A DNA stretch of 64,000 nt, from positions 972,501 to 1,036,500 of the forward strand of contig AP031352.1 in assembly GCA_037833965.1 (NCBI GenBank). The letters run 5' to 3'. Position 1 is the first letter of the stretch. Every line of letters begins with the position of its first letter. The stretch is from Marchantia polymorpha subsp. ruderalis (lineage: Eukaryota > Streptophyta > Marchantiopsida > Marchantiales > Marchantiaceae). Positions 2,272 to 58,153 of the stretch are shown here, piece after piece. The translations under genes were made by a program, and so were the position numbers. The notes beneath the pieces are model-generated. The model made no database searches. It had not been told where the DNA came from and was given only the letters and a program-made list of their open reading frames with translations.

Positions 2272-5200
2272 ATGACTTGGGCCTGCCCAAGATGTACGTT
2301 TCTGAATCAAGGAAAGATTGCTGTGTGTAATATCTGCTCCTACGACAATCCTCAGCCGGTTGAGGATGCTGGTCCGGAATGGTCTTGTCCTTCTTGCACA
2401 TATTTGAATCTGTTCGTTGAATCTGCTTGTGATATGTGTAATACCGCAAGACCGGAGCTAGACGAATTGGAAAGGAAGGATATAGGAGAAAATGGTCCAA
2501 GGCCTACGAGTAAATTCAGGCCTCTACGAAGCAATCAAAGAGGCAAGGCTGACAAGGAACAACTTTCTGAGGCCACAGATTCTAATGCAGCGACTCCGAT
2601 TATTACTGATCTGCATTCTTTCCTGAAGCCATCCGATATGCTCTCTCGAAAACGTAAGGCAGTAGACGACGAAGATGGTTCCAAGGTCAGTGATATGGAG
2701 GGATGTACAACATCCAGGGACAGAAATGCTACAGGAGATGGGGAATTGTCTAATAACTTGCTTGGAGAACTACATATGGAGAGGATGGCTAGACTCAACA
2801 GTAAGGTTCCATCAGATGCTTTTCTGGGACTTTTGAGTTGAACTTATTGGTGTTGTTTTTTGGAGAAAGAACGTAGATGTTTGAAGTAGCTGTCATTGGA
2901 CATGTTAGATTATGTTTTTTGCGCTGTGAGAAGCTGTAGAGTATGCTCAAAACCGGCTGCGTATGTGTGCATTTGAATATGGCTTCGTAAGTTCTCATGT
3001 ATGTTTCACAACTTACTTGTAGTCATTCTATTTCAGTGACGGATCAATCTTTTGGCTGTCAAATGATGGTCTCCAGACCTTATGAAAAGCAGTCAGCAAA
3101 CTTCTGCTGAAGCTTCTGGAATGGCCTCGGATTCCCAAATGCGGAGGGGGTCAGAGAAAAGTGCACCCCCCAGTTCAACAAACAACACGGATACTATTGT
3201 TATTTTGAGTTATAATGTGTGGTTTCGGGAGGACCTTGAGTTGCACGGAAGAATGAATGCCATTGGAAATATCATTCTGCAACATCAGCCTCACGTGATC
3301 TGCTTTCAGGTACTCAGCTCCCCTGAAATCGTGCTTCAAACGTTACCTTGCTTATGTGCAACTTAGATGTTGGAACTAGATAAAGATACATGTTGGTGTA
3401 AGACTTCTAAGTTGCACACACTACATCTGTGTCCATGCAGGAGGTGACTACCAATATATATAGCATATTTCAGAGGTCAAGTTGGTGGAAACTCTATCAG
3501 TGTTCTGTTCCACCTGCTCAATCATCCAAGCGAGCGTATTTTTGTATGCAGGTGAGTTTGTCGTGAAATATTGAGTTCTTTGATGAAGTTTCGGGACTTA
3601 ACTAATAGCATCCAATGTCTGCTCTTTAACAAATCCCATCTTTACTGATTGTTCAGTTCTTTTACAACTGTTTTGGAAATAACAACAGCTTCAGACGTAA
3701 TCTACTAAATCTTCTTTCTACTAAATAAACAGCTCAAAATAATATTCCTCCCGCTGCCCTCAATATTCCATATCATCAGTTCTGTGCAATCTGTTTTTAC
3801 TGATGTCTTTCAGTTTAGTGCAGAGTCTATGATCTTGAAATGTGTACGGTTCGGCTGATGCGTTGTGAGTTTCTCATACCAGATGATCAGATTACCTGTT
3901 CTGAATTTTCATCGGAATCCCTTCAATAATTCAGTAATGGGACGAGAGCTGTGCATGGCCGACATGGATGATGGTCATGGAGAACAACTTGTGGTTGCCA
4001 CTTCACACTTAGAAAGCCCTTGTCCTGCACCACCGACATGGAATCAGATGTTCAGTAAAGAACGAGTGGCCCAAGCCAATGAGGCTTTAAATTTTATGAA
4101 AGATATGCCAAATGTGGTTTTTGGTGGTGACATGAACTGGGATGACAAAACGGATGGTGCACCTCCACTTCCTAAAGGATGGTTTGATCCATGGTTGAAG
4201 CTTCACCCTACTCAGGTACAGAAGACTTACCATCATATCATAATTCTGATGGTTTATTTGTCTGATTTAAAACTCACAGAGTTTGTAATTTTTCTTAATT
4301 TCTGTGAAGTAGAATGGCAATATAAATTGATGCCGAGTTTATCAGTGATGCGAGTCCCATCTGCATCTTGGTTAGCAGATTATTTTTTGGCGAAACACAT
4401 GCTTCCAAGATTTGCTGCATTTTGGTTTGCAGATCATCCGCTTATAATATATAGTTTTTCAACGTCATTCATATTTAAATATACATATTCATATTCACAT
4501 TTCTTTCATGTACCTCATTGTGGTTTCTGGTATGTCATCTGAACGGATCCAAAGCAATTGTCTGGTTCTCTACTGACTCTAGACATGTCCTTACTCGTGC
4601 AATGCATTTGAGCATGCCTCACCGAGTTGTTGGACCATTAAAGAATGTAAAACCAAGTTTGATATTAACACTATCCTTGATATCATCACGAATTCATAAT
4701 CTTATTTCTTGTTTCTCAGTAGCGCTGTTAAATGGTTCTAAATGGTGCTAGAGACACCCATGTATGCTTATGAGGCAAGCGTTGATAATAATTAGGAAAC
4801 CGCTTACTTGCTTCTCATATACTATTAAATTAGTCTAGTTCCTGTTATCTGAACATATGTTCCAACTTTAAATATGCGTGCCTCAAAATAGGTTTGGATC
4901 TTAGCATTTCAATTTAAGTCAATTTACACTAACCTGGAAACAGAACTGGGGGTGACCTCAAATATGTGTCCTCCCAGTACGATGCCCGCGGTGCTTCAAG
5001 TTTGCAATGTTTCATTTATCACATTAGTAGTTTGGACTTGATTCCAACTAATTTACAGTATCTTCATAGACTAACAATTTTGTCCGTTCATTTATATTAT
5101 GGTACACTGATTCTTGGATTGGGAAGCTCCATCGACCTCCAGCTTCAAATTGTTGTGCTCGAAAGAAAATTCATCTGTGATATTTCTAGAACATATAAAG

Positions 5201-5567
5201 ATCTTATTTCGAAACCCTTTGAAGCAGAGGCTTGTGTAAGCAGAGAAGTCGTACAGAAATGAGATCGGAATACCGCCAACCTGATTTGGGGGTTTGATTT
5301 GTGGGTGAGCAGCCAGGGTTGACATATGACAGCAAAGCGAACTTGATGCTCACTGGGAGTCGCCTGCAGAAACGAATCGATCGTTTTTTTTGTCATCTAC
5401 AAAACTTCAAAGTGGACAGTCTTGAGATGGTTGGAACACAACCAATTCCAGGTTTAACCTACCAAAAGGAGCGGAAGGTGAAGAGAGAAGTTCAGATGCA
5501 AACTCTGCCAGTATACCCAAGTGATCACTTTGGCCTTCTTCTCAAGTTGCAGAGGCTTCAACCATGA
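2272..5567 (+). CDS. TDP2: TDP2-like 5'-tyrosyl-DNA phosphodiesterase with two RanBP2 zinc fingers
   Basis: Family role: hydrolyses 5'-phosphotyrosyl bonds left by abortive topoisomerase II, releasing trapped DNA ends; mainly nuclear. Five exons fit by splice motif and phase: 2272-2800, 3077-3309, 3441-3551, 3883-4215 and 5313-5567, giving 486 residues. Two RanBP2-type zinc fingers (Cys 5/8/19/22 and 39/42/53/56, each with W-x-C and an LN pair) open the protein. A low-complexity linker with a basic SRKRK stretch follows, then the endonuclease/exonuclease/phosphatase domain from about residue 215. Catalytic motifs are intact: SYNVWF (Asn223), QEV (Glu255), SHLES (His333), GGDMNWDD (Asp374) and PSDHFG (His474). 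Start choice: the ATG at 2272 has A at -3 and places the first zinc finger at the N-terminus, as I recall for plant homologues. An in-frame ATG at 2014 would add 86 residues. The fourth intron is about 1.1 kb, so a small missed exon is possible. The ApgM-type gene follows on the same strand. Confidence 0.9.
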
Positions 5568-6868
5568 TCTCTTGTGATCAATAGCTTGATTGCAATGTAG
5601 GTATTATCCGTAGTCTTAAAATACCGAGGGATTGAATCAATTTTGTACATGAGAAGAGGTTAGTGGTAGGATTCTTGTATGCGGTGAACTTCCTCCCGTT
5701 TTCAATGGAAGCACTTCTAGGATTCACCGGAAGTGTACAACGTTTTGAGATGACTTGATGGTCATCATTCTATGAACATTTGGGTGCAGCTGTGTTGTCT
5801 GAATATTTCCTGGTCTGTCAACTTTACTGTAAACAGACTTTTGGGAACACAAAAATACATATCGACAATATCTAGCAGACGTTGCATGAAAATCTTCCCG
5901 GCGAAATTTAGTTTGGATCGAATCATCGTTCCAAACGGCGTATATGACTCACTTGGGTCCCCCAACTGAAAAAGAGGTAGACAAATCTATCAAAATACTA
6001 TTTAGGATAAACGGAAGTGTGTTCATAACACAGAAGTAGAAGGCGAATAACTGCCCAATTTGCAGAAGCGAACGGTGAAGCCTTGTGTACCGTTAGTGCC
6101 GAGTGGTTGACTCAAATGTGTTTCAACGCTGGCAATTAAAATTGCCGGGAGCATCGCTGCGAAAGGAAGCAAATCTTAAGAATGTATCCTAGACATTGTC
6201 CGACTTTCGGACCGGGTACTGGTGAAGATCGACGAGCGTACCTTGGTATCAATAAAATGACATCAAGCGCGAGCACGCATTGCATGGGAGAGGTAAATCG
6301 CCATCATCGACGTAGGAACAGGGCACGTACTGTCCATTCTAGAGGGCGTAGGTGCATACCGACTTCATGGCCTGGATGGAAGACATCAAGCATAGGAAGG
6401 TAGCTTTGGAGGACCGTGTTGTGACGGCCTGAGAGTCGACGAGTGTGCACCACAGTCGTCACGTCACATCGGAGCTCAACATCCTGACAGTGTAGGTGAT
6501 TGTGATGGGATGCGGAAAAGTCAGAAGTGGAGCCGAAATTAAATAGATCGCGAGGAGCTGAGGAGTTCAGCCGCACAGACTGTGTCAACGCGCAGGGGAC
6601 ACAGAGTGGATAGACAGAAAGGCGGAGTGACAGACAAATCGGAGCCAGACAGAGGGAGACAGAGCACAGCGAAGTTTACCGCCGCGCATGAACTGATCGA
6701 TCGATCGATTCGTCGAGGTGTAGAAGGTTGTGACTCGAGAAGCAAAAAGGCTTGCGATTTTGGGAGGGAATTCTGCGATCGGGCTGGAAGGATCTTCAAT
6801 CTTCGTGATCTTCATTGATCCGTGCGAGGGATTATTCAATCAGTTCTGCAGAATCTAGACGTGCGTAA
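5568..6868. other. Intergenic region between the TDP2-like and phosphoglycerate mutase genes
   Basis: This should hold the 3' UTR of the TDP2-like gene and the promoter and 5' leader of the next gene. Only short overlapping open frames are present. A short GATC-repeat tract lies near 6696-6710. No TATA box or polyadenylation signal could be assigned with confidence. Confidence 0.5.
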
Positions 6869-9624
6869 ATGACGAATGCAGATAATTTGACAGGCTTGAA
6901 GAAGAAGAGGGTGGCTTTCATTCTCGTAGATGGATTGGGAGATGTGAGCATACCTTCTCTGGGGTTTCGAACTCCCGTGCAGGCTGCCAGTACACCCAAT
7001 TTGGACGCTGTGGCACGAGCAGGGGTGAATGGTCTGATGGATCCCGTCGAGCCTGGTCTGGCTTGTGGAAGTGACACAGCCCATCTATCGCTCATGGGTT
7101 ACAACCCTCTCATCTACTACAAAGGGCGTGGCGCTTTTGAGTCACTCGGTGCAGGCCTCGCCATGTCCCCTGGCGATATTGCCTTCAAGGTACTGAAATT
7201 TCACTAGTGAATCAAATCTGGAGTACGCAATTCACAGCTCAGTGTCAACTTTTTCCAATCAGCCTCCACTCCGATTTTCTCAAGATATGAGAATCACGTG
7301 AACTTCCTAACAGATTTTTCTCTAGTTAGGCATTTGTCATCTCAGTCACAAGAGATTTCAGCTATTCTGAATGTCGACGGGTTGCCCGTCTCCGTTGCAC
7401 TGAATGTCAGCGTTTTGCAGTGAAGCTTGTTTTGACATCTATCGTCAGTTTTCATCTACTCTGATTTCACACGACCTTGAGAATGTACGTCTTTACGACT
7501 TTTCAGGGAATTTTGTGTCTTGCTCTTCACACAAGGCTTGCAATCCTGCGAGTGAACTCCATTCGCTCTGCGATTTTGGGTGTGTTTACCGATCCTTAAA
7601 TCAGTGGAACTTGTGATCACTTTCTTTGCGCAGAGTAACTTCGCAACCATAGATGATGCGTCAGGAATAGTCACTAGTAGGAGGGCAGACCGGCACTTCG
7701 AAGAGGAGGGACCCATCCTGTGTGCAGCTTTGAATGGACTCAAGCTGCCATCCTACCCCAAGTATCAGGTTTGTGTAAGGTGCAAAGATTATTCTCTGTT
7801 TCTGAAACTATCACGCCGTTCCTTGAGCACAGGGGCGATGGTGTTTTTGCGTTGCTCTCTGTAATGGATGATGGCTTCTGCGCTTCTATGCATGCATCCT
7901 CGAACTGATCCGTTATTCGACCCTTTACTTCAATGTGTTAGTTAATGTTCTGGTTCTGATGATTGTCCAGGTATGCCACAGAGCATAGGTGTGGAGTAGT
8001 TGTCAAAGGCCCAGGTTTAAGTGGCAATATATCTGGCACGGATCCTCTGAAGGATAATAGGCTTCTACAGACTGTGGTGGGGCTCGACGACTCCGAGGAA
8101 GCTAAGCACACTGCAGCCGTGGTCAATGAACTTTCCAATGAGATGAGAAAAATTCTTACGGCTCATCCCCTGAATGCTGAACGCAAGGTGCAGGGGAAGA
8201 GCATCGCAAATCTGGTTCTCCTCCGTGGTTGTGGTATTCGCATTGAGGTGCGTACGAAGGAGAAATGAATGAGCAAGCTTGATTCCTCACTTCATATCGA
8301 GTATGCCCGTTTCAAAGCAACCGAATTGTGGCTGAGTAATTGAATGTTAAATGTCCTGATGGTTAAAGTCTCTGGACCTTAGCTCTACTATGTCTGATGA
8401 TGGTGATTTCCACCTGCTTGAGTGTTTTATGAGGAATTTACAGCTCTACTGGGCCATGATCATCTCTTCAGAATGTGGGTTCATGCCCACTTTGTCTGGG
8501 AATGTCGCTGTGATGTACTGCGAGGTCACGAACTGCTTCATGGAAGTACTTTCTCGAGTAAATGTGCAGGTGCCAACGTTTCAGGAGCAGCACGGGCTTG
8601 TACCATGCATGGTTGCTCCCACGAAGATCATTGCAGGTCTGGGTTTGTCGTTGGGGATCGATATTTTAGATGCTCCGGGAGCAACAGGGGACTACCGAAC
8701 CCTGCTGACCTCCAAGGCCACTGCCATTGCAAGCGCTCTGTCTGCTCCCTCCAAGTCTCCACCGAGTATTTTCATTCCAGGAGACGAAGGCTTCAAACCT
8801 GGACACAGTCAAGGTTATGATTTTGGGTTTTTGCATATCAAGGTAACTTAGCGTGGGATTCCAGTTGAGTCATGGTTTGATTTCTCGCCGACAAAACGGT
8901 CAAATAGAATTCTTTCTCCTCCTCTGCTTCTTGATGTGCCTTGCTCTACCGAGGATATGGAGTCAGCTTAGGAGGGTGGTCGGCAGTGTGGAATGTGAGT
9001 TGTGGACAACATTGGCTGTTTGAAAGACAGGAGCAAATTCCAGAATCTAGCTGATCCTTTATCTCCTCACTATAACGATTTCCTTCTCTGCTTGTGGCTG
9101 TGACTTGACGTTGTTTTTTCGCTGAACTTTCACAGGCAATTGACGATGCTGGACACGATAAGGCTGTAGAATTGAAGGTTAGGGCATTTGAAGCTGTGGA
9201 TGTAATGCTTGGCCAGCTTGCGCGCCTGCTTTGGGAAGAAGAAGCGAAGAACGGCCAGTTCGAATATAGTCTATGTATTACAGGTGATCATTCAACCCCT
9301 GTTGAATATGGAGATCACAGTTTTGAGCCTGTTCCGTTCACCATATGTCACTTGAAGGACTTCGTGGCAGCCAAAGGCGGTGAATCTGCAGTCCTCGCCA
9401 CCTCTTTGTCTCCTTTCAATCTGCCCATAGTCGGTTCTTCAGCTCTGGCTGCACTCGCCGAGAGCGCCAGTGCTAGGGCCACTCGCGACTCCTGTGATTC
9501 TCCAGTTGCTGGTGATTCAGTGGTTCATTTTGATGAAATTGCTGCAGCCAGAGGTTGCCTCGGGCGGTTCCAGGGTAGTGAAATGATGGGGATCATAAAG
9601 AAATATATGCACCTTACAAACTAG
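6869..9624 (+). CDS. 2,3-bisphosphoglycerate-independent phosphoglycerate mutase, ApgM (archaeal) type
   Basis: Family reaction: interconverts 3- and 2-phosphoglycerate without cofactor, using two metal ions and a serine nucleophile in an alkaline-phosphatase-like fold. Five exons fit by phase: 6869-7189, 7634-7779, 7971-8247, 8570-8842 and 9136-9624, giving 501 residues. Motifs in order: LVDGLGD (metal-binding Asp21), ACGSDTAHLS with the probable nucleophile Ser68, YATEHR (157-162), GNISGTDP (175-181), DDAGHDKA (342-349) and TGDHSTP (Asp390, His391), then a second GDHS at 398-401. There is no obvious transit peptide, so the product is probably cytosolic. The length is close to plant homologues and longer than the roughly 400 residues of microbial ApgM. 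Exon 2 must end at GTAAG/GTGCAA (7779), not at the nearer CAG/GTTTGT (7768), because only the former keeps frame into YATEHR. I recall Arabidopsis At4g09520 and At3g30841 as the same family; the enzyme's role in plants is less clear than that of the standard iPGM. Confidence 0.92.
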
Positions 9625-15644: not shown

Positions 15645-16110
15645 GGCATGAAAAACATGGAGACTCTCAATCACGCCTTGCGAATCTGATTGCTCAACCT
15701 CTGCGGAATAAATGAATGTGTCTGGGCTTGAGGTGGAGGATGAGGCATCCTCACCTACATCACCAAAAAAGTCTGGATTCATTCCATTGTGATGAAAGAG
15801 AGCTAGAAGGGCAAGGAGAACATAACGATCTCCATCACTACTTGAAAATCTCATTGCTCAACGCTAGCTGAATGTATGGATGTATGTCCCGGGTTGAGGT
15901 GGGGGGATGAGGCATCGTCACCTACATGACTAGAAGAGTGCGGATTCCGTTGTGATAAAAGAGACCTAGGAGGGCAAGGAAAGCATGAAGAGCTCCATCG
16001 TTCCTTATAAATGTTATAGCCAACATGAGCTGAATGAATGATTGTATGTTCGGGGTTGAGGTCGGTGGATGATGCAACCTCACCTACGGCACTAAAATGT
16101 GTGAACATCA
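15645..16110 (-). repeat. Imperfect tandem repeat, period about 164 bp, nearly three units
   Basis: Three related blocks share GCTCAAC (15692, 15856, and a variant near 16019) and GATGAGGCATC followed by CACCTAC (15739, 15906, and a variant at 16068). The spacing is 162-167 bp. On the minus strand each unit can be read as a related peptide (for example VGDDASSPHLNPGHT and VGEVASSTDLNPEHT, 54 residues apart). Because not all spacings are multiples of three, the third unit lies in another frame. It could be a decayed protein with a roughly 54-residue repeat, or a plain DNA satellite. Confidence 0.7.
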
Positions 16111-21846: not shown

Positions 21847-22694
21847 TCATGTTGAGACTGGTCGACAAACTTGACCAAAATGGCTCGAGGTTTTGTTCCA
21901 ATTTTCCCAATCCAAAAAGCCTAGAGTAAGTTTAGGCTGTGAACATGTGGTGTCAAGTAATAATTTAGTGACAATACTCTTCACATCTTCATTTTCTGTT
22001 TCTGGTAAACCAGATATCCTAACATTCTTCCTACGGAAATATTGATTTGTATTTTCAATCTTTTGTTCTTGACAGAAAGAAATATGCGCAACCTTAATAG
22101 TCTCGGCATAGTACTTAAGTGTAAGTTCTAGGGTGTCTATCACTTCGTGCAATCTTGGGCTACTAGGAACAATTGCTAGTGATGTGGTTTTAGTCTGAAC
22201 ATCTATGAGGGTTTCGGAAATATAAAGCGTCACACTTGAGTTATCTTGCAATTCTATCCTCGTGGCTTTTGGTGAAGCTTTCAACCCTTGTATCTGAGTA
22301 TGAGTGAGAGTGAGTTGAACAGTTTGTAACTTAAATTCTTGATGAAGTTCATCAAGGTCGTTCGAGATTGTTTGTACCAACTTGAAAATTTCCTTTTGAT
22401 AGGTCATCGTCACTCCTTCACACTTCTTCTCATCCAATCTGAGTATCTTATCTCCCCTATAGAACGAAGTCTTTTCCTTCTCCAAAATTGTGGAAGATCC
22501 CTAGTGCCTTGAGAAGAATCCAAAATCCTCACGGTTTTACTGTGAGGATTTTGGGTTCTTCTTGTAGAAAGAACTTTTGGGTTCCACTTGTGGAAACGGT
22601 GATTTCTTCTTCTTACCACAGTCACTCTACCACTTGTGAGTCGTAAACATTCGCTACTGTAACCGTAGTTGTTTGTAATGTCGCACCGCTTCAC
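21847..22694 (-). pseudogene. LINE ORF1-like protein
   Basis: A 212-codon frame (21847-22485) carries a predicted coiled coil (heptad-like Leu/Ile spacing, first 80 residues), then RRKNVRISGLPETENEDVKS, the typical start of the RRM-like fold of L1-type ORF1 proteins. A further frame to 22694 overlaps its start and may be the original N-terminus. ORF1 proteins bind the element's RNA. Confidence 0.65.
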
Positions 22695-22750: not shown

Positions 22751-23777
22751 CTTCAGTATCTCCGACCGACCGCACACTAATCAAAATTTAGGTTTTACTC
22801 AATGTTTTCCTTACATTTGGAAATCTATCATTCAATTTTTCCTCGAATCCATTACTGCATTCATCTCACTCCACCTTACTTCACCTCTCGCCGAAATGAC
22901 ATTCAAGAAAATTTGCTCACGAATAGGTTCTCGTATCTTCTATTTCTATGCCTTTGATGATATTGTTTGCGTTTCACCCTCCGTTTCGCTCGCCAATCCC
23001 AAGAATAGTCGCATGCATGTGAGCTTTCACAAAAAACGCATCAATCTCACACAAAAGCTTGCTACTCTCGCAGGTCGCATCGCATCGCATTACTTCATGG
23101 ATTGTGTTGATGATGAGGACAAAAAGTATGGTGAATTGTCCGCTCAAAGACGCCACTTTTGCCATGAGTTGCGAGATGTGCAAATGATATACAACATATC
23201 GATGGACTATAGTGATAGCCACTCCCTTGCACTTACAAGGTGTAGCTCATACTTGTATGAAAATTTACTCTATCAAACGGTTTATCACTTTCATTCATCT
23301 CATTGCCTTGGTATTGCTTAAATGTAATCTATATGTATTAAGGCGCTACATAATTGACTGATAGGCACGACAATTTTGCCTGTTATTATTACGACATTCT
23401 CACGTGACATGTGAAGGTCAATGATCATCCACCATGTACTTGCATGTACTAGTACCCATCGATTGATCCGGTGATGCTCGGAGTCTTCGATTTTTTGGTA
23501 TCAAATGTTGCTGGTAGTGGCTACTTTCGCTACTATTATCTATATTGAAGTTACCACATGCATGCAACTACTCTCACTATATGAGTCCCAAATTTTTGCA
23601 TTTTAAGAAGGATAGAGGTTCTTTTTCCTGCATGCAACTTCCTCATCCAGGTGATCAAACAAGTTCTTAAAGCTAACTAATCTTTATAGTAACGATTACA
23701 TCTTCCTAAAAAAATAATTATTTTCATCCAGTGAGTTGTTCATTGAGAATAACACATGCCATATGTTGGTTGTTCTC
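22751..23777. other. Gene-free gap between two mobile elements
   Basis: One open frame of 141 codons (22896-23321, + strand) has no recognisable motif and is probably chance. A short GCATC repeat (GCATCGCATCGCAT) occurs near 23085. Nothing else is seen. Confidence 0.4.
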
Positions 23778-23861
23778 TGTAATAACCCACCAAAGGCTAA
23801 AACTGCAGTATAGCAACAAAAGGTCAAACCCACAGGGACAGAGGCAACACACGGAGTACTA

Positions 23862-24680
23862 AATGTCACGTTTTAACAAACTATTGAAGAGTTTGAATTC
23901 TTAGGCTACTGTCACTCCCAGAATTACTGCAATTGCTCAACTTGGAGGTCACTCAGAGGTCGCACAGTGCAGCGTAGTTTGCCCCAACACACACTTGAAA
24001 CTGTAAAAGCACAACTCAGAGGTCGGTTAGGTCCTCTACTTAAGATTCAGGGGGAAAGTTCCTCAGGAGTACGCTCAGAGGATCTGCACGTAGTCACCCA
24101 ACTCCAAATTTACAACCCTTCCACTAGTTACTGCTAGTGCAGGGCATCCGGGTTGGAATTCCTACTTCGGATGCGGTACCTTCGTCAAACCAAAGTCATT
24201 CTCACGCGGTGAACAACACACTCAACTCACAAAACGCGCAGAGAATACTAAAATCCGAACTGAGAAACTCAATTGAGAAAAGATCCAATGTCACCACTTA
24301 ACAATCTATTGACGAGTTTGAATTCTCAGGCACTAGTCATTCCCGCTACCCCGAAGGCGCCTCGAGCAGCGTAAGACACACAACTTGAATTTACAACCAA
24401 TGCTTACTCCAAAGTTAACAAAACTTCACTTTGGCATTCAAGGGGAAAAATCCCGAAGGAATACAAACAAGGAAAATCGTCCGAAGGTGTAAGTCCGAAT
24501 TTGAAGATCCGGACTAGACTTTCTGCTAGCTCAGAACATTCGGCCAAGGACCTTGAGCTACAAAATGCGGTAACTTTGACAAGCTGTAGCTCCTCTTGCG
24601 CGGTGACAGATGAAAGACACAAACGCGCAGAGAAAACGAGTTCATGAACTGAACTTCCGAAACTGGAAAATCCCCCAAGG
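23862..24680. repeat. Tandem imperfect direct repeat, period 425 bp, two units
   Basis: The units start at 23862 and 24287 with AATGTCAC. Both continue with a near-identical block (AACAAACTATTG / AACAATCTATTG, then GAGTTTGAATTC, then AGGC). Both also share ACGCGCAGAGAA near their far ends (about 24235 and 24623). The middle parts are more diverged. The repeat sits at the 3' side of the element's coding pieces. Confidence 0.7.
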
Positions 24681-24689
24681 CCAACGCCT

Positions 24690-27600
24690 TGAACTACTTT
24701 ATACACTCTAAGATCGTAACTACCTAACACTACTACTCTACGCTTCATCTGCTATGCCTCCGATGCGAAGGCCGATTGCGCACTAACTCCCTACCCGTCC
24801 AATCGTCTACTCTCCTGCGCAGTCCGAGCCGCCGCAACACCTCGGTCACCTCTGCCTCGAGGTTCGCAATGGCGTCCCGCGACCTCGAGAGGAATGACTC
24901 CAACTGCTTCGCCACGCGCCGCCGACTCCGATTGTCATCTGACATCAAAGCCGCCGCACGAATCTCCATCTCTCACAAGGTCGCTCTCTCTCGCGTTGCA
25001 ATCTAGCAGCGAGTATAACCTTTTAGGCACCGGTCAACTCGCGACACTAACTCTTTCCGCGTGTGATCTGTCGCGCGCCGGTTGTGGCCTTCAAATTCCA
25101 CTAGCTGCAACTCCGCCTCCGCACGTTGCGCTCTCAATTCGTCGCACTGCGATTGCAGTCGACGCAGTAACTCCTCGTCCGTCTTCCGTGCGATTTCACT
25201 CTACTCCAGCAACCGCGTATGCCGCACAAGCTCCTCTGCCAAGATGTAATTTTGAGCTCGCTCGGAATTGAGCTCCGCCCCGATCTTCGCACGCTGAACT
25301 TCAAATTCGCGCTGAACGTCGGTCACCATAGAATCTCGCAGCTCCATCGCTTTCTTCTGCAACTTGCGTGAAAGAGTAAACTGCTCCTGCAGGAAATCGT
25401 ACCGCTCTTCTAGCTGCCTATACTTTTGGTCCAAGGCTATCAGCTCGGGATTTGTCGCTACCTTGATTCGAGTCCGATTCCTGACCAGCTCAACGTAGGA
25501 TCCTCGATGGCGGGGATCCGCGTACCTAGTCGCATTGCGATCAACGTACCGTAGTAGTGGTACCACCTGCTCGCAAAGCACTCTCGGTGTACCTCGCACC
25601 GACTCCACTTCCTCTTCCTCCGATCCTGTGTCGTCTTCGGTCTTGAAGATCTTTGTCGCCGCAAAATCCTCGGCGATTCTCTTGAGCTAAGTCGCGCTGC
25701 TTCTTCTGCCGCGACCTCCGCTCCACGTCCTGCCAACATTTTCAACTTGGTGGGAGAACTTGCTCCTGGTGAGCCTGCTTCACCTGCCCGGACTGCTACT
25801 GCCAAAGGTGCTTCGACAAAACGTCTTTGCCGAAGGCACACGTGTCTTCTCCTTCCTGCCTTCGTCCGCCGCAGATTGCTCAAGTTGCGTCTGCGCCGAA
25901 GGCGCTTGACCTGAAGTCGAGTCATCAAAGGGTACTCGCTCGTAAGCCAAGCTCTTCTCCGTTGTTGGCATGTTGGCCGGTGCCGCATGCCGTCTTCCTT
26001 GACCCGAAGGCCTACGTGCTTCCTCCGAAGGCGTCCGTGCCTTCGGTGTAGGGAGGTCAGCTGAACTCTCAAGAACTCATGCACTCACATCCTCCTCAGA
26101 GGATGGTGAGTTTCTCGTCTACGCGGCTCGTCTTGTGTCCGCGCTACTCGCCGGCAGAACAAGCTTGCGTGCCTTCTGCTTCGGTCGACTTGCGAGCTCG
26201 TGGTTTGTCCGACGTCTGACTGGAGCAGCGGGCACTTTCCGCTGGCTCTGGTCCGCTTATCCATACCACTTCCGCTTCCACGGTTCTCGCTCTCTCCACG
26301 GTTCGTCTTCCATTCTTGGCCGAGCTGGTGATGTTTTGGCGGATGCTTCGTCGGTGTCGGTATCAACCTCAACGTTCTTCACATACCTGCCCGGATTTGT
26401 TCGTGACATCAAGGGAAATTGTACCCGCTCCGTTGCTGTCAAACACCCCATCGACTGATAGAAATTGATCAAGAAGGGAGAGAGGTGATTGATCGATCCC
26501 CCCTTCTCCTGTGCGTGCTATCGCGTTGCCTTCCACAGAATCCGAGCCCAATGAATCGGAGTTCCTGACAACGCCAGCTCCACAAACCCCACCTGCCAAG
26601 ATGTCATGTAGGTGGTCCCGTGCGGCTGTAAAATTTGGAGGAGTGCTACCGCGACATTCCTCCGCTTGCGATCCTTGTAGTCACGGGTCTTGTATCCATT
26701 CTTGCTCGACTTGCAGTTCTTGAAAAGTGCATCTAAGGAAATTTCTTCTTCCTTTGTGACCTGCACACTCTCACGGTCAAATAGGAGGTCGACTTCCTCT
26801 TTCGCGCACCTTCCCAAGACCTGCTCCCAATCACTGACTTGCCTCCTCTCCGGGTGCGGTCGATAACAGCGCGGAGGTTGGTTCTTCTCCCGCAGCCACT
26901 CCCGGACTATCTCCGGGCACACCCAATTCCATCCCCATAAGAGTAAGTCGAGCTTCACTGCCAGCAGCTCGTCTTGAAATGCGCGTAGTCCGATCTGCGT
27001 CACTTTCAGCGGGACCATCCGCAGCTAAATCGACCTGGCCATTGAACTCTTGCAAAGTCTCTACGAACTCGGCTTCTGCGCGTCGGGAGCTCGGGCGAAC
27101 TCGCTGCAATCTCTCTCTGCAATTCTCTCCCACTCTCTCAAACTTTCCGCGAGCTCTCCGCGAATTCTCCACAAGACTCTTGCAAGGACTCTTCCGCTAC
27201 GCACTCTGTTGCTGTGCACTCTAGGCAAATTCCCCGCACACTTTCCTGCAACACACTCTCTGCAAACTCTCCACTGATTCTCCGGCTGCGCGTCGCGAGC
27301 TCTAGCGAATGCAAAATTGAAAATGCGAGAGTGAGTCCCTTCCTTCGGCGATCAAGATTGCTCATTGTTTGACACTTGGACTGGCCGCGGCCCACTTGAA
27401 TGCTATGCCGGCGCAGAGGCGTAACGGTACAATTCGCACGCGCGAATTCACGCTTCGCCATTGCGCAGACTCCCACACTTGTACATTCAATCTTGATCCC
27501 GCTGATTTCCGCCGACGCCGTTCTCCGTTCGCGTACCGCCGAAGGCGCTCGCGGTGAAGGTACGGAATTCCGCCGTTTCCTTTGTCCTTTCTTCTTCCGC

Positions 27601-27910
27601 CGAAGGCGAGTACTTTCGCTCAAGGCGCATCCTTCCACCAAAGGAGCATTCTAGAGGCGAAGACATTCCTTCCGCCGAAGTCAAAACCTAACGACGAAGG
27701 CGGCGCTAGTGCCAAAGGCGTTGGGGCGAAGGAATCTACCGCCGAAGGCGTCTGATGTGACGAGGTCGTTTTTCCTGTGACGAAGGCGCTTTGTGTCGCA
27801 TGTCTTCAGCGAAAGCTCCTCTGCAGTCGTCTGAGCCGAAGGTGCTTCCTTCTGCTTGGGCCAAAGACCCTTCAGCCGAATACACCTCAACAAAGGAGCT
27901 TTTGCCAAAG
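24690..27910 (-). pseudogene. Minus-strand coding part of the 4.36-kb element
   Basis: The globular part includes TSWQVGFVELALSGTPIHWA and a preceding EEEISLDALFKN stretch, vaguely recalling plant mobile-domain proteins but not assigned. The coiled-coil part includes YRQLEERYDFLQEQF and FLSRSRDAIANLEAEV, with strong heptad spacing. The arginine-rich part overlaps the CGAAGGCG motif array. Function is unknown; it may be a gag-like or structural protein of the element. Treated as a fossil and broken. Confidence 0.5.
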
Positions 27911-27925
27911 GCGTCGAAGACGCTC
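27536..27925. repeat. Dense array of degenerate CGAAGGCG motifs
   Basis: About fourteen copies of CGAAGGCG or close variants (CAAAGGCG, CGAAGGTG, CAAAGGAG) fall within roughly 390 bp, about every 28 bp but not at fixed spacing. Smaller groups occur at 25800-26050 and 24340-24500, all inside the same element. Read on the minus strand the motif gives AFGG-like peptides. Confidence 0.75.
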
Positions 27926-27983
27926 CCCTCAGCAGGAACCGTCTGTTCCATCCAAGGCACTCGACCTCGGCCTAAGCGGGCTA

Positions 27984-27999
27984 CCCCCCCCCCCCCCCC
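27984..27999. repeat. Poly-C tract (16 C)
   Basis: Sixteen consecutive C residues close to the right end of the 4.36-kb element. The exact length may be uncertain because such tracts are error-prone in sequencing. Confidence 0.9.
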
Positions 28000-28133
28000 T
28001 AGATTCTTTGAGACCTGAGATTCTCACTTTTTACTCTATTTTACGTACCGATTACTATTTACAGCTGCTGCCGCGGTACTTATTTTCCAAAAATGTTTTA
28101 ATTCCGACCAAAAACAAAAAGTGGGTTACCACA

Positions 28134-30690
28134 TCCTCCTAGACATTATTTCAGAAATATGACCTTTGAGATGATAAATCTCAAAGGTCATAGTTGTCTC
28201 AATTGGAAGAAATTCATAAAATAGATCATTGCTATAGTAGAATTGGGAACACCAAAAAAACGATACAGTTCAAAATGGAAACCACCTATAATACATTTAA
28301 GGGATGAAATCAACATACGAGCTAAGTACTAGACTCCAATAGCATCAAAATGAGAATTAAATCTCATAACACTCACTAGAGTACACATATCAAACTGACT
28401 ATCAACGTTAACATTTCTAGAATCAATCCCTTACTTGATTGTTACGTAACGAATTGCACTGCATAGTGTTCTACGTAGATTAAGCAAAAACATGTGCCAT
28501 ACATGAACTTTGCACAAAGGTGAAGAGAACTATAAAGTTTTTGTCTAGTAAGATAGGCTCTAGTGTTTTCTCTCGTAGACATGTCAAATGGTATGTTATG
28601 ATTTCATATAACTGTAATGTTAGAATAACAAAAAGGTGACATGTGCATATCATATTGTATATATTGGCTTCACAAGAGTACATCCACTGTATGAGTTTTG
28701 CACCGATTGATTATTAGTTCACACATCCATCCCATCATGACCATAATAAGAGTAGTTTCACAAAAGCTGGAGTCTTCTCCTTTTTAGTCCTGATATGTCT
28801 TATATATTGCACTTTAGCACAAACATGCACTTTTCCGTGTAATGCTTACACACTTGTTCCCCCTCGCGACTTTTTTTGTTTCCAGCAAGCAGAGTCATGG
28901 CTTGCAATAGTTGAAGCTCACATTCTTCTAGAGATATAATACTGGACAAAATGTACACACTTCAACCTCATCAGATGAATTTTCTTGTCATGCTTCAAAA
29001 GGGGCTTAATGGTTGGGCTTTCCTGATTGATCGTATGAACGAATAAACGAATTAATGCAAGCTGAGATGACTGGACTGGAATTATACTGTCGGGCCCTGT
29101 CCAGATCACAGCCCCACATGCTTTTTGGAGCTTTGATTTCTAGTCATACGGACCTCATGTCAAAAAAGCAAGCAGCAGTGACCAAGGAAGGAAGGAAAGA
29201 GGTGTTTCATGAGTCAGTAGAGCAAGTCAGACTCGAGAACAAGACAAAATGCCATAATGACCAGCTCCCTCTAAAATACAGTGACAACGTTCCAAGTCTC
29301 ATCTATCCCCTTCGGAGGCCTCGACTGTTCCCGGCGGTCCGGTTGCGGAGTTGACCGGAGAAGAACATTGATTGGACTTTACATGGCCCCGAAACAGGCA
29401 ACTCCAGGTCGCCCCTCTGGAGTCGGGAATCAAACTGGTCTCAACAAACGCTGGAATTACTATGAGACTAGTAGACTTTGACATTTGAGTTGTGTTTCTG
29501 AAGCAGCCGACTTAAAAGTCTTATATTTGTAGTTATCCAAGTTAAGGTGATGTTATGGGCCAGTGACAGAGTGAACTCGGATTAGGCGCTCTACGTACTG
29601 TATCTCTGGAGAAACGTCATGCGAAAGGATCTCCATGCATGATGAGGTGAAAGCTTGTCTCTAAAAGTCATCCGATAAATCCTCCGTAAGACTGAATCAT
29701 GAATATGATCATCCACCAATTCCTAGATTGTCTCGGACAGTAATAGAAGAAAAGTCTACCGAAAGTTGCAAGCCCAAAGAAGTTTCAATTGCATGCCCAC
29801 TAGCTCTGACTTTGTTGTGATAATTATATTATTATCTCATCCTTTCTAATTTAATTCATTTTTACCACTTCCTCTCGTAAGCAATAGGCAGATGACCTTA
29901 CTTTTTTGTGGAGATCAGAGAATCGTATCAATCAGATCTGAGGTACGTGCTGAGTTCTGTTGTTTGCAGGTTTTTTTTATGTACAGGCCTGGTTGTGGTT
30001 CCCGTCCGAAGATTCGATATTACTCTCTCTCTCTCTCCCCCCACCTCTCTCTTTCTCGAACGAAGACGATATTGATGGAGAACGACTGGGGCCATCCTCT
30101 TTGTTTTAATAAACCACAGTATTAAATGAGAATGTAGCACTTTGACTTGTGAGTATCGTGAGATATGTAAAATTTGTCACTAAAAAGAAGGAAATGGTTG
30201 AGTATGTAGACAGAGCACATGCGAACTGGGAACATCCGAGCCAGCTCGCTCATACTGTAGTGTAGGGTCCTGGCAAATATCACAGGACAGCCTTTTGGCA
30301 GCGGAACAGTACGCGGAGAAAACTTACGAGTGCTTGAAAGTCGAGGGAGGTCTTTGGGAGAATATCATGCGGATTCAAATGTCCCCGCCTTCGGCAATGC
30401 GGGCCTTGCAGCCTTGACGAGTGGAACTTGACATTCGGCGGGAGGAGAGAGCAGAGCAGAGCAGAGCAGACGAGGTGGGGTTGATGCGCTTGCAGTAGGC
30501 AGATGAAGATGTGAACATTCCTCTGAGTCTTCTCCGGCTTTGTCCTCACATCCATCAACACGAACACTGTGGATTTGATTTGACACCTCTTACCCCGCGT
30601 ACCGAGATCAGCTTCTTCGCGGTGTTGCTGCTGACGGGGATGATGTGTGTTCAATAATCCACGGACTATTCAAAGTCCAATCCCGGCAGT
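28134..30690. other. Gene-free region
   Basis: No convincing gene. A perfect 11-bp inverted repeat (GACCTTTGAGA / TCTCAAAGGTC, 7-base loop) lies at 28161-28189, just past the end of the 4.36-kb element. A TC-rich microsatellite lies near 30021-30038 and a GCAGA repeat near 30450-30472. Confidence 0.4.
28161..28189. repeat. Perfect 11-bp hairpin
   Basis: GACCTTTGAGA and TCTCAAAGGTC flank TGATAAA. It lies 28 bp beyond the edge of the 4.36-kb element. No function is evident. Confidence 0.6.
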
Positions 30691-52370: not shown

Positions 52371-52818
52371 AGATAAAATATTAAAGCAAAGAGATATAAA
52401 ATCAGATTGGTGTTTTGATGATTTTGTCACAAGTTTTTAAAATCTTCAGAAAATATTAAGTGATGAGAGTTAATTTCATTTTACTCTTAAGCTTAATATT
52501 TGCTTTTTATTAATCATTTTCACTTGAGTTGCTTTATTGTGATAAAAAAATAATCGTTTATGCATTAGAAAAATTATTTATTTATAAGTTATGAAACATT
52601 GTGTTACTTTGCAGATTTAAAATTCGAATCAAGTAAAATTTACTAACAATTTTTTTTACCTTTATATATAAACGTTGAAAAAAAAAACAGATTATAAATA
52701 AATTTTAACATTTTATGGCTAGATTTTAGTTCTAATTAACTCAAATTTTGAAAGAGATTTATGTTAGATTTCTATGTATCTATATGAATTAAAATTATTC
52801 ATAAAATATGGATCATTT
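52371..52818. other. AT-rich stretch beside the copia element
   Basis: A/T-rich DNA with homopolymer runs and no open frames of note. It lies directly outside the recognisable left repeat of the copia element. Confidence 0.45.
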
Positions 52819-52932
52819 TTCTCTTCTATACAAGAAGAGATAAGATGCACATCTTAGATAAACTAACCACAGTTAACTTTTCTAACCATGATTATCAATA
52901 ACTGGAGTTAGTCCAAGATAGAGTTAACCTAA
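52819..52932 (-). repeat. Left terminal repeat of the copia element (recognisable part)
   Basis: This stretch aligns without gaps to 58038-58151, with 20 differences in 114 bases. It starts from a CTCTTCTATACAAGAAGAGA block shared by both copies. Confidence 0.8.
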
Positions 52933-57831: not shown

Positions 57832-58153
57832 GAAAATCCCAACAATCCAAATTGATTAGCACCCACGAGAGTCACAACACCGAGATAAAGTGGTTCATTT
57901 TCCACAAACTACGTTCACGGTAAAAGTAGAAACTTCACTAAAGCATAAGTGTATACACGACCTCCATAGTCAAGCTTTCCCCCTTCCTGTTCACTCTCTA
58001 AGTGCAATCCTGAAGTGCACGTAGTGAGTGTCTCCTTCTCTCTTCTATACAAGAAGAGATAAAATTCACATATTAGCTAACATAGCTAGAGTTAACTTCT
58101 CTGACCATGGATATCATTAATTAGAGTTAATCCAATATAGAATTAACCTAACA
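57832..58153 (-). repeat. Right terminal repeat of the copia element
   Basis: The + strand runs from TGAAAATCCC (about 57832) to CTAACA (58153), as expected of a TG...CA repeat. The probable primer-binding site adjoins its inner edge. The inner boundary is approximate. Confidence 0.65.

Follow-up and report, generated by a model that had tools for sequence, protein, structure and literature searches.

We analyzed a 64,000-nucleotide stretch of DNA from Marchantia polymorpha subsp. ruderalis (NCBI GenBank assembly GCA_037833965.1, contig AP031352.1, positions 972,501 to 1,036,500 of the forward strand), referred to here as the window, and focused on a 4,356-bp element at window positions 23778-28133. 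The element has the ends TGTAATAACCCAC...GTGGGTTACCACA and is flanked by TTCTC and TCCTC, which are alike at four of five bases. An initial annotation, made from the sequence alone, had given these ends, flanks and length exactly, and had noted minus-strand arginine-rich, globular and coiled-coil pieces inside the element. Those pieces are real, and they are fragments of a single decayed gene, which we call ORFx. A tblastn search of the window with the intact 851-residue ORFx protein aligned it to positions 27042-25888, across five stop codons, and to 25938-24736, across six, with frame shifts between the pieces. A motif array had also been reported, and CCGAAGGCG-like motifs are visible in the sequence. 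The reported tandem 425-bp repeat held in part: two 58-bp stretches with 84.7% identity do lie 425 bp apart, but Tandem Repeats Finder gives no such repeat. An Rfam scan of the window returned nothing at the gathering score.

Copies of the element in the genome

Copies were sought in the window's own assembly, which comprises 241,466,482 bases in nine contigs. A 17-base pattern from one end of the element, TTTGGTGGGTTATTACA, occurs 6,118 times (3,082 + 3,036 on the two strands) with at most one mismatch, compared to eight times (3 + 5) for the reversed pattern used as a control. Exact matches number 2,355 (1,139 + 1,216), and the reversed control gave none. The same boundaries therefore recur far more often than expected by chance. 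When the entire 4,356-bp sequence was used as the query, we recovered two further end-to-end matches, with 81% and 78% identity, together with many partial matches; this search scored 35 of 6,585 first-look candidates, and its copy counts are lower bounds.

The copies are also accompanied by 5-bp target-site duplications (TSDs). Both ends could be read in 12 copies, a count that leaves out those truncated at either end or carrying changed end bases. Eight of the 12 have perfect duplications (L002, L005, L019, L022, L023, L026, a copy nested in L028 and a full-length copy on C1), three match at four of five bases (the window element, L003 and L013), and one, an inverted structure in L015, has no duplication. 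The joined flanks of the window element, used as an empty-site query, matched the window's own locus and no other place.

Full-length relatives and the identity of the element

On C1, the element's ends recur several times in the same orientation at a spacing of about 10.66 kb. One such pair belongs to a young complete relative at C1:377831-393369, which consists of two 4,870-bp long terminal repeats (LTRs), identical across the 3,701 bp compared, around an internal part of about 5.8 kb. CGTCC lies on both of its sides as a perfect TSD, and the TGTGG...TTACA ends are common to the window element and to the LTR pair around the internal region. The order within the complete relative is LTR, primer-binding site (PBS), a gag open reading frame (ORF) with a weak protease match, UAG, an ORF for reverse transcriptase (RT), RNase H and integrase, polypurine tract (PPT), LTR. 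In the relative L029, on the minus strand, a 945-codon frame matches the Pfam model Retrotrans_gag (1.1e-13) and contains two zinc knuckles, and a 946-codon frame matches RVT_1 (7.6e-27), RT_RNaseH_2 (9e-36), Integrase_H2C2 (6.9e-14) and rve (3.7e-14). The initial annotation was correct that no polymerase is visible in the window; the polymerase is found in the full-length relatives, where RT and RNase H precede integrase.

The PBS, TGGCGCCGCTGCCGGGGA, begins 22 nt past the LTR in the complete relative and may be of the tRNA-Asp type. It was read from L029; a pattern for a PBS of the tRNA-Met type had given no matches and was discarded. A PPT, AATTGAGGAGGGGGGCA / GAGGAGGGGGGCA, stands directly ahead of the 3' LTR. 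The pol frame stops 37 bp ahead of the 3' LTR and the gag frame starts 83 bp past the 5' LTR, and therefore most control signals must sit in the LTR. Genome-wide, the PBS follows 450 of the 2,355 exact LTR ends (control, none), and 1,209 LTR-PBS junctions are found when a shorter LTR end is used. Because each complete element has two LTRs, about 1,450 of the 2,355 ends would be solo or otherwise unpaired, which is an upper bound.

The window LTR shares about 65-75% identity with the LTR of the young copy, in alignable stretches only. A closer relative is present at L009, where an LTR that is 80-82% identical to that of the window, and that has lost its first ~200 bp, is followed by the PBS (with one base changed) and gag. 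Therefore, the window's own subfamily also includes gag-bearing members.

Given these relatives, the window element is very probably an old solo LTR from a Ty3/gypsy retrotransposon that is highly abundant and has a gene in its LTRs of 4-5 kb, a reading that includes the U3 and recombination scheme proposed below. We regard it as solo because neither a PBS nor a PPT adjoins the LTR in the window flanks. The suggestion of a giant LTR carrying its own gene was thus right: in the complete relative, two LTRs flank gag-pol in direct orientation, and an intact sense ORFx lies wholly within each. Two observations count against this assignment. The TSD of the window element itself has one mismatch, and the aspartyl-protease match in the gag frame (23.1 bits) is below the Pfam cut-off of 24.3.

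The element might instead be a large non-autonomous derivative, akin to a large retrotransposon derivative (LARD) or a terminal-repeat retrotransposon in miniature (TRIM), that moves as a unit and is not a recombination product. Copies near the window type are mostly single, with a PBS at one of 26 LTR ends in the loci by script and the one-base variant in L009 by eye, and variants whose interiors have changed, among them the 2.5-kb copy nested in L028 with TSD TACCG, are single as well. However, a single LTR lacking a PBS and a PPT cannot be reverse transcribed as a unit, the 450 LTR-PBS junctions with the same LTR end make gag-pol elements of this kind common, and solo LTRs are the ordinary expectation. 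We therefore consider a non-autonomous origin very unlikely. This option, which the initial annotation had raised, is not needed because full-length gag-pol relatives exist, including the gag-bearing copy in L009.

A new family of DNA transposons with terminal inverted repeats (TIRs) had been proposed too. The ends are imperfectly inverted over 13 bp and accompanied by 5-bp duplications, and a structure with inverted arms of about 0.9 kb in L015 brought a TIR transposon under consideration. Against it stand the direct-repeat pairs with a PBS, PPT, reverse transcriptase and integrase between them; moreover, no window ORF tested against Pfam matches a transposase, and the L015 structure has no TSD and is better read as a recombination product. 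We rejected this identity, to which we assign next to no probability.

Several further structures were seen in these loci. The L015 structure (5167-7798) has arms derived from the 3' part of the LTR, the longest being 642 nt with 95% complementarity, and is nested in another copy. The LTR variant at L028:6118-8619 has a perfect TSD, is nested in another LTR and contains other repeats in its interior, including a GC-rich array of 20-21 bp units. At the gag/pol junction of L029 (6580-6582, minus strand), both frames are in one register with a single TAG between them, in the context TAG CAA CTA, which we take to fit the readthrough context of the tobacco mosaic virus type, UAG CAR YYA. A 20-mer spanning this TAG occurs 403 times with at most three mismatches (control, eight), and the 100 places listed were all exact. 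Four gag/pol junctions at C6:10776521-10808526 are each spaced by 10,662 bp, suggesting a tandem array of elements that share LTRs. On C1 (5.6 Mb), which may be a sex chromosome, 100 exact LTR ends lie in the first 3.27 Mb, or about 30 per Mb compared to 9.8 genome-wide. Long segments of this contig apparently occur in three copies, at spacings of about 393 kb and 358-366 kb, and each copy has the same succession of LTR insertions (for example at 2261483, 2654947 and 3021028; L010, L011 and L012).

ORFx, its conservation and the putative promoters

In the LTR of the young copy, an open frame of 951 codons runs the same way as gag-pol; 851 residues of it, counted from an ATG aligned with other copies, constitute ORFx. 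A genome search for this frame scored the best 53 of 13,437 candidates. All 53 copies have the 951-residue open frame, 52 without an internal stop and one with a single TGA, and 42 of them form 21 same-strand pairs 10,588-10,684 bp apart, corresponding to one ORFx per LTR. More distant relatives, with 28-41% amino-acid identity, are also present in the fetched loci.

The predicted protein has a conserved N-terminal domain of about 170 residues with the motifs WGWNW, RDYKDR and HWAR.LWK, a basic middle region rich in S, T, P and A that contains RKRKW, and an arginine-rich C-terminus that a simple heptad heuristic, applied to an intact homologue, scores as coiled-coil-like. No transmembrane stretch was found, the maximum 19-residue hydropathy being 1.22. 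Pfam gave nothing near its cut-off for ORFx, and a PDB sequence search with an 881-residue piece of the frame returned no relative. In IMG/VR, eight stretches fit a pattern from the window's N-domain, none of which is a relative by tblastn, and single-sequence AlphaFold2 modelling of the domain had an unusable mean pLDDT (predicted local distance difference test score) of 34.2. With its conserved N-domain, basic linker bearing a motif of the nuclear-localisation type, coiled-coil-like C-terminus and lack of a transmembrane stretch, ORFx looks more like a nuclear protein with an accessory or regulatory role than like an envelope protein.

We used the intact ORFx of L030 as the reference for codon comparisons. 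The ratio of nonsynonymous to synonymous substitution rates (dN/dS) is 0.233 for L016 (800 codons), 0.254 for L025 (793 codons), and 0.235 and 0.163 for two stretches of the window copy. Across all stretches of more than 100 codons with a computable ratio, dN/dS ranges from 0.13 to 0.35, and decayed copies raise the ratio. Third codon positions hold more differences than either of the other two positions in every comparison printed, with 24 of 43 differences for L016 (p = 0.002) and 142 of 260 for L025 (p = 1.5e-12) against a null of even spread; the excess is significant for both window stretches as well (p < 1e-8). Moreover, the frame remains recognisable between subfamilies at 28-69% amino-acid identity. 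Judged by these codon patterns, ORFx has been under purifying selection across subfamilies and is intact in many young copies.

Some features of the comparison weigh against this conclusion. Synonymous sites are near saturation between subfamilies, with a proportion of synonymous differences (pS) of about 0.6-0.8, and dS is saturated in many cross-subfamily stretches, which yield no ratio. The compared stretches were picked by protein similarity, which biases dN downward, and young, intact copies are favoured because the 53 scored are the best matches to the query. These 53 are 99-100% identical and thus recent, and ORFx might accordingly be no functional protein gene at all, its frame kept solely through the youth of the copies. 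Consistent with this idea, only 42 (by hand count) of about 150 listed window-type N-domain matches lack a stop in the matched stretch of 165 residues, the longest open frame listed being 673 residues. Against it stand the recognisable frame between subfamilies, the third-position excess and the low dN/dS values, and we hold a non-functional ORFx to be highly improbable.

The position of ORFx relative to the start of the genomic RNA depends on where the promoter lies. In the intact copy L030, a TATA box, TATAAAGTAG, starts 33 bp past the ORFx stop. It is located 925 bp from the LTR end in L030 and 926 bp in the window, that is, in two subfamilies. Across subfamilies, 32 of 38 hits, with duplicate loci counted, contain a TATA match, and its columns are 0.83-0.97 identical, compared to a mean of 0.854. 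From this arrangement, we infer that this TATA box directs the start of the genomic RNA, that R-U5 is about 0.9 kb long and that ORFx would fall in U3.

The evidence on this point is mixed. No TATA match was found in six of the 38 hits, and among window-like copies 172 of 976 8-mers exceed the TATA 8-mer in conservation. A second TATA-like motif, TAAATAG, lies close to the LTR 5' end; its LTR position is 72-74 in nine of the ten LTR starts printed and 93 in L030. Over 26 rows, identity in its seven columns is 0.88-1.00, compared to 0.797 for the regional mean, and the motif thus stands out more from its surroundings than the TATA box does. There is a precedent for such a site in rice Retrosat2, for which PMC3485330 describes a TATA box at the LTR 5' end and an R region of 2 kb. 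ORFx could therefore lie instead in R-U5 of the same solo LTR; with transcription from TAAATAG, the genomic RNA would have ORFx as its first ORF, and translation from the cap would reach it ahead of gag. Against this arrangement, gag would come about 1 kb behind an ORF of 851 residues, the gag ORF starts 83 bp past the LTR end, and the canonical TATAAAG stands immediately past ORFx, with its distance to the LTR end constant in two diverged subfamilies. We consider an R-U5 location unlikely.

If ORFx is in U3, the following scheme would explain the window element. The genomic RNA would start at the TATA box past ORFx, and ORFx would be its 3'-terminal gene, in the position of env or an accessory gene; it is the next gene downstream of pol because the pol stop lies so close to the 3' LTR. 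ORFx would be copied into both LTRs because the PPT lies upstream of it. A spliced or subgenomic RNA may serve for its expression, or else transcription from the second TATA-like motif, near the start of the LTR. At the window site, recombination between the LTRs would have deleted gag-pol, after which the ORFx of the remaining LTR decayed. In this scheme, the U3/R boundary, the promoter and the expression of ORFx are predictions from sequence, which tells against it.

A bolder variant, which we hold to be unlikely, is that the LTR is a self-contained gene cassette. ORFx would have its promoter inside the LTR, and its product would work in trans on behalf of the family, perhaps by countering host silencing. 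In that case, a solo LTR would keep both promoter and gene after LTR recombination, by which hosts usually disarm such elements, had removed gag-pol, and the accessory gene would persist in thousands of places, which would help explain the abundance of the family.

Positions of these features are given in Table 1. Elsewhere in the window, we noted a tandem repeat of about 163 bp in 2.3 copies at 15706-16087 (with a wider match from 15618), a 51-bp palindromic match with 86% identity at 22512-22562, a hairpin with 14-bp arms, found by eye, directly to the right of the element at 28159-28191, and a 116-bp direct repeat with 83% identity at 52817-52932 and 58036-58151.

Table 1. Features of the element, in window coordinates
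Feature	Position	Strand	Remarks
Probable solo LTR of a Ty3/gypsy retrotransposon	23778..28133	- (sense)	Boundaries shared with other copies; homologous pair flanks gag-pol; neither PBS nor PPT beside the window copy
LTR 5' end TGTGGTAACCCAC	28133	-	
LTR 3' end GTGGGTTATTACA	23778	-	
Left target-site duplication TTCTC	23773..23777		Match to right copy at 4/5 bases
Right target-site duplication TCCTC	28134..28138		
Decayed ORFx	24748..27018	-	From start codon at 27018 to end of final codon at 24748; several stops and frameshifts
ORFx N-terminal conserved domain, open, 166 aa	26521..27018	-	Identity 66% to young intact L030 and L016, and 79-86% to a further six copies of the window type
ORFx middle, basic S/T/P/A-rich linker, broken pieces	25783..26517	-	KRKW motif of nuclear-localisation type; from composition of intact homologue
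ORFx C-terminal coiled-coil-like part, broken pieces	24748..25686	-	tblastn; heptad heuristic on intact homologue
TATA box TATAAAG, putative genomic-RNA promoter	24697..24703	-	Between ORFx stop and LTR end
Putative R-U5	23778..24670	-	Transcription start assumed ~30 bp past TATA box
TATA-like TAAATAG near LTR 5' end	28055..28061	-	Candidate separate ORFx promoter or, alternatively, genomic-RNA promoter
425-bp-spaced repeat, copy 1	23862..23919		
425-bp-spaced repeat, copy 2	24287..24344		

Comparison with known systems

An LTR is usually regarded as a control region without coding function, and a solo LTR as an inert remnant. The initial annotation had put the element forward as a candidate for an undescribed system; it does not represent an undescribed class and is a Ty3/gypsy element with an unusual LTR. 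With plant Ty3/gypsy elements (Metaviridae) of the non-chromovirus type it shares gag, the order of RT, RNase H and integrase, the PBS and PPT, the 5-bp TSD and a TG...CA LTR. It differs from plant Ty3/gypsy elements in the 22-nt distance of the PBS from the LTR and in having a large conserved gene within the LTR itself. Non-chromovirus LTRs reach about 5 kb according to Neumann et al. (2019, PMC6317226), and the compact internal region resembles the description given there of the Phygy and Selgy clades. A chromodomain at the integrase C-terminus, the mark of the chromoviruses (Tekay and others), was not found among Pfam hits up to E = 1 in the pol ORF of the relative. An additional RNase H (aRH), as in Tat, Ogre and Retand, was not seen either, Pfam giving RT-linked RNase H models only, though an aRH that has diverged might escape them. 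Barley Sukkula and other LARDs have giant LTRs of 4-5 kb, many single copies and a non-coding internal domain; here, in contrast, gag-pol partners exist and the LTR is coding.

Extra genes are described in other plant retrotransposons, at different positions. Rice Retrosat2, RIRE3 and RIRE8, compared here by their description in PMC3485330, have LTRs of about 3 kb or more, LTR ends of similar style (TGTCACACCC-GGGCGTGACA) and an extra ORF of unknown function, ORF0, with mean nonsynonymous (Ka) and synonymous (Ks) divergences of 0.257 and 1.647. However, ORF0 is upstream of the gag-pol ORF and not in the LTR, and according to the same paper the enzymes are not encoded by LTRs. In Athila, Bagy-2, Grande, RIRE2 and Retand, the additional ORF (aORF) or env-like gene is downstream of pol, in sense orientation in Athila and Bagy-2, as set out in PMC7264820. 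That ORF is located between pol and the 3' LTR, whereas here the PPT precedes ORFx, so that ORFx is duplicated in both LTRs. The phrases "within the LTR", "in the LTR" and "U3 region" do not occur in the available text of PMC7264820. Nor do the hydropathy values of ORFx indicate the transmembrane segment that characterises env-like genes. In the literature searched, as far as its text was accessible, we came upon no report of a protein-coding LTR in a plant, and the extra ORFs described belong to the internal region; most subscription papers fell outside the search, and absence is thus only weakly indicated.

In this very abundant plant repeat family, with its many intact young copies, a conserved 851-residue protein is encoded wholly in the LTR. 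This opens to testing the idea that a plant retrotransposon carries an accessory gene within U3, as well as the idea that its solo LTRs may still express ORFx. There is also a warning for annotation, since solo LTRs of the ORFx family could pass for genes or for unknown repeats. Accessory ORFs in U3 of the 3' LTR, or reaching into it, occur in vertebrate retroviruses, namely sag of mouse mammary tumour virus (MMTV) and lentiviral nef, which are much shorter. The layout of MMTV sag would be the nearest to that proposed for ORFx, and the likeness meant here is one of layout.

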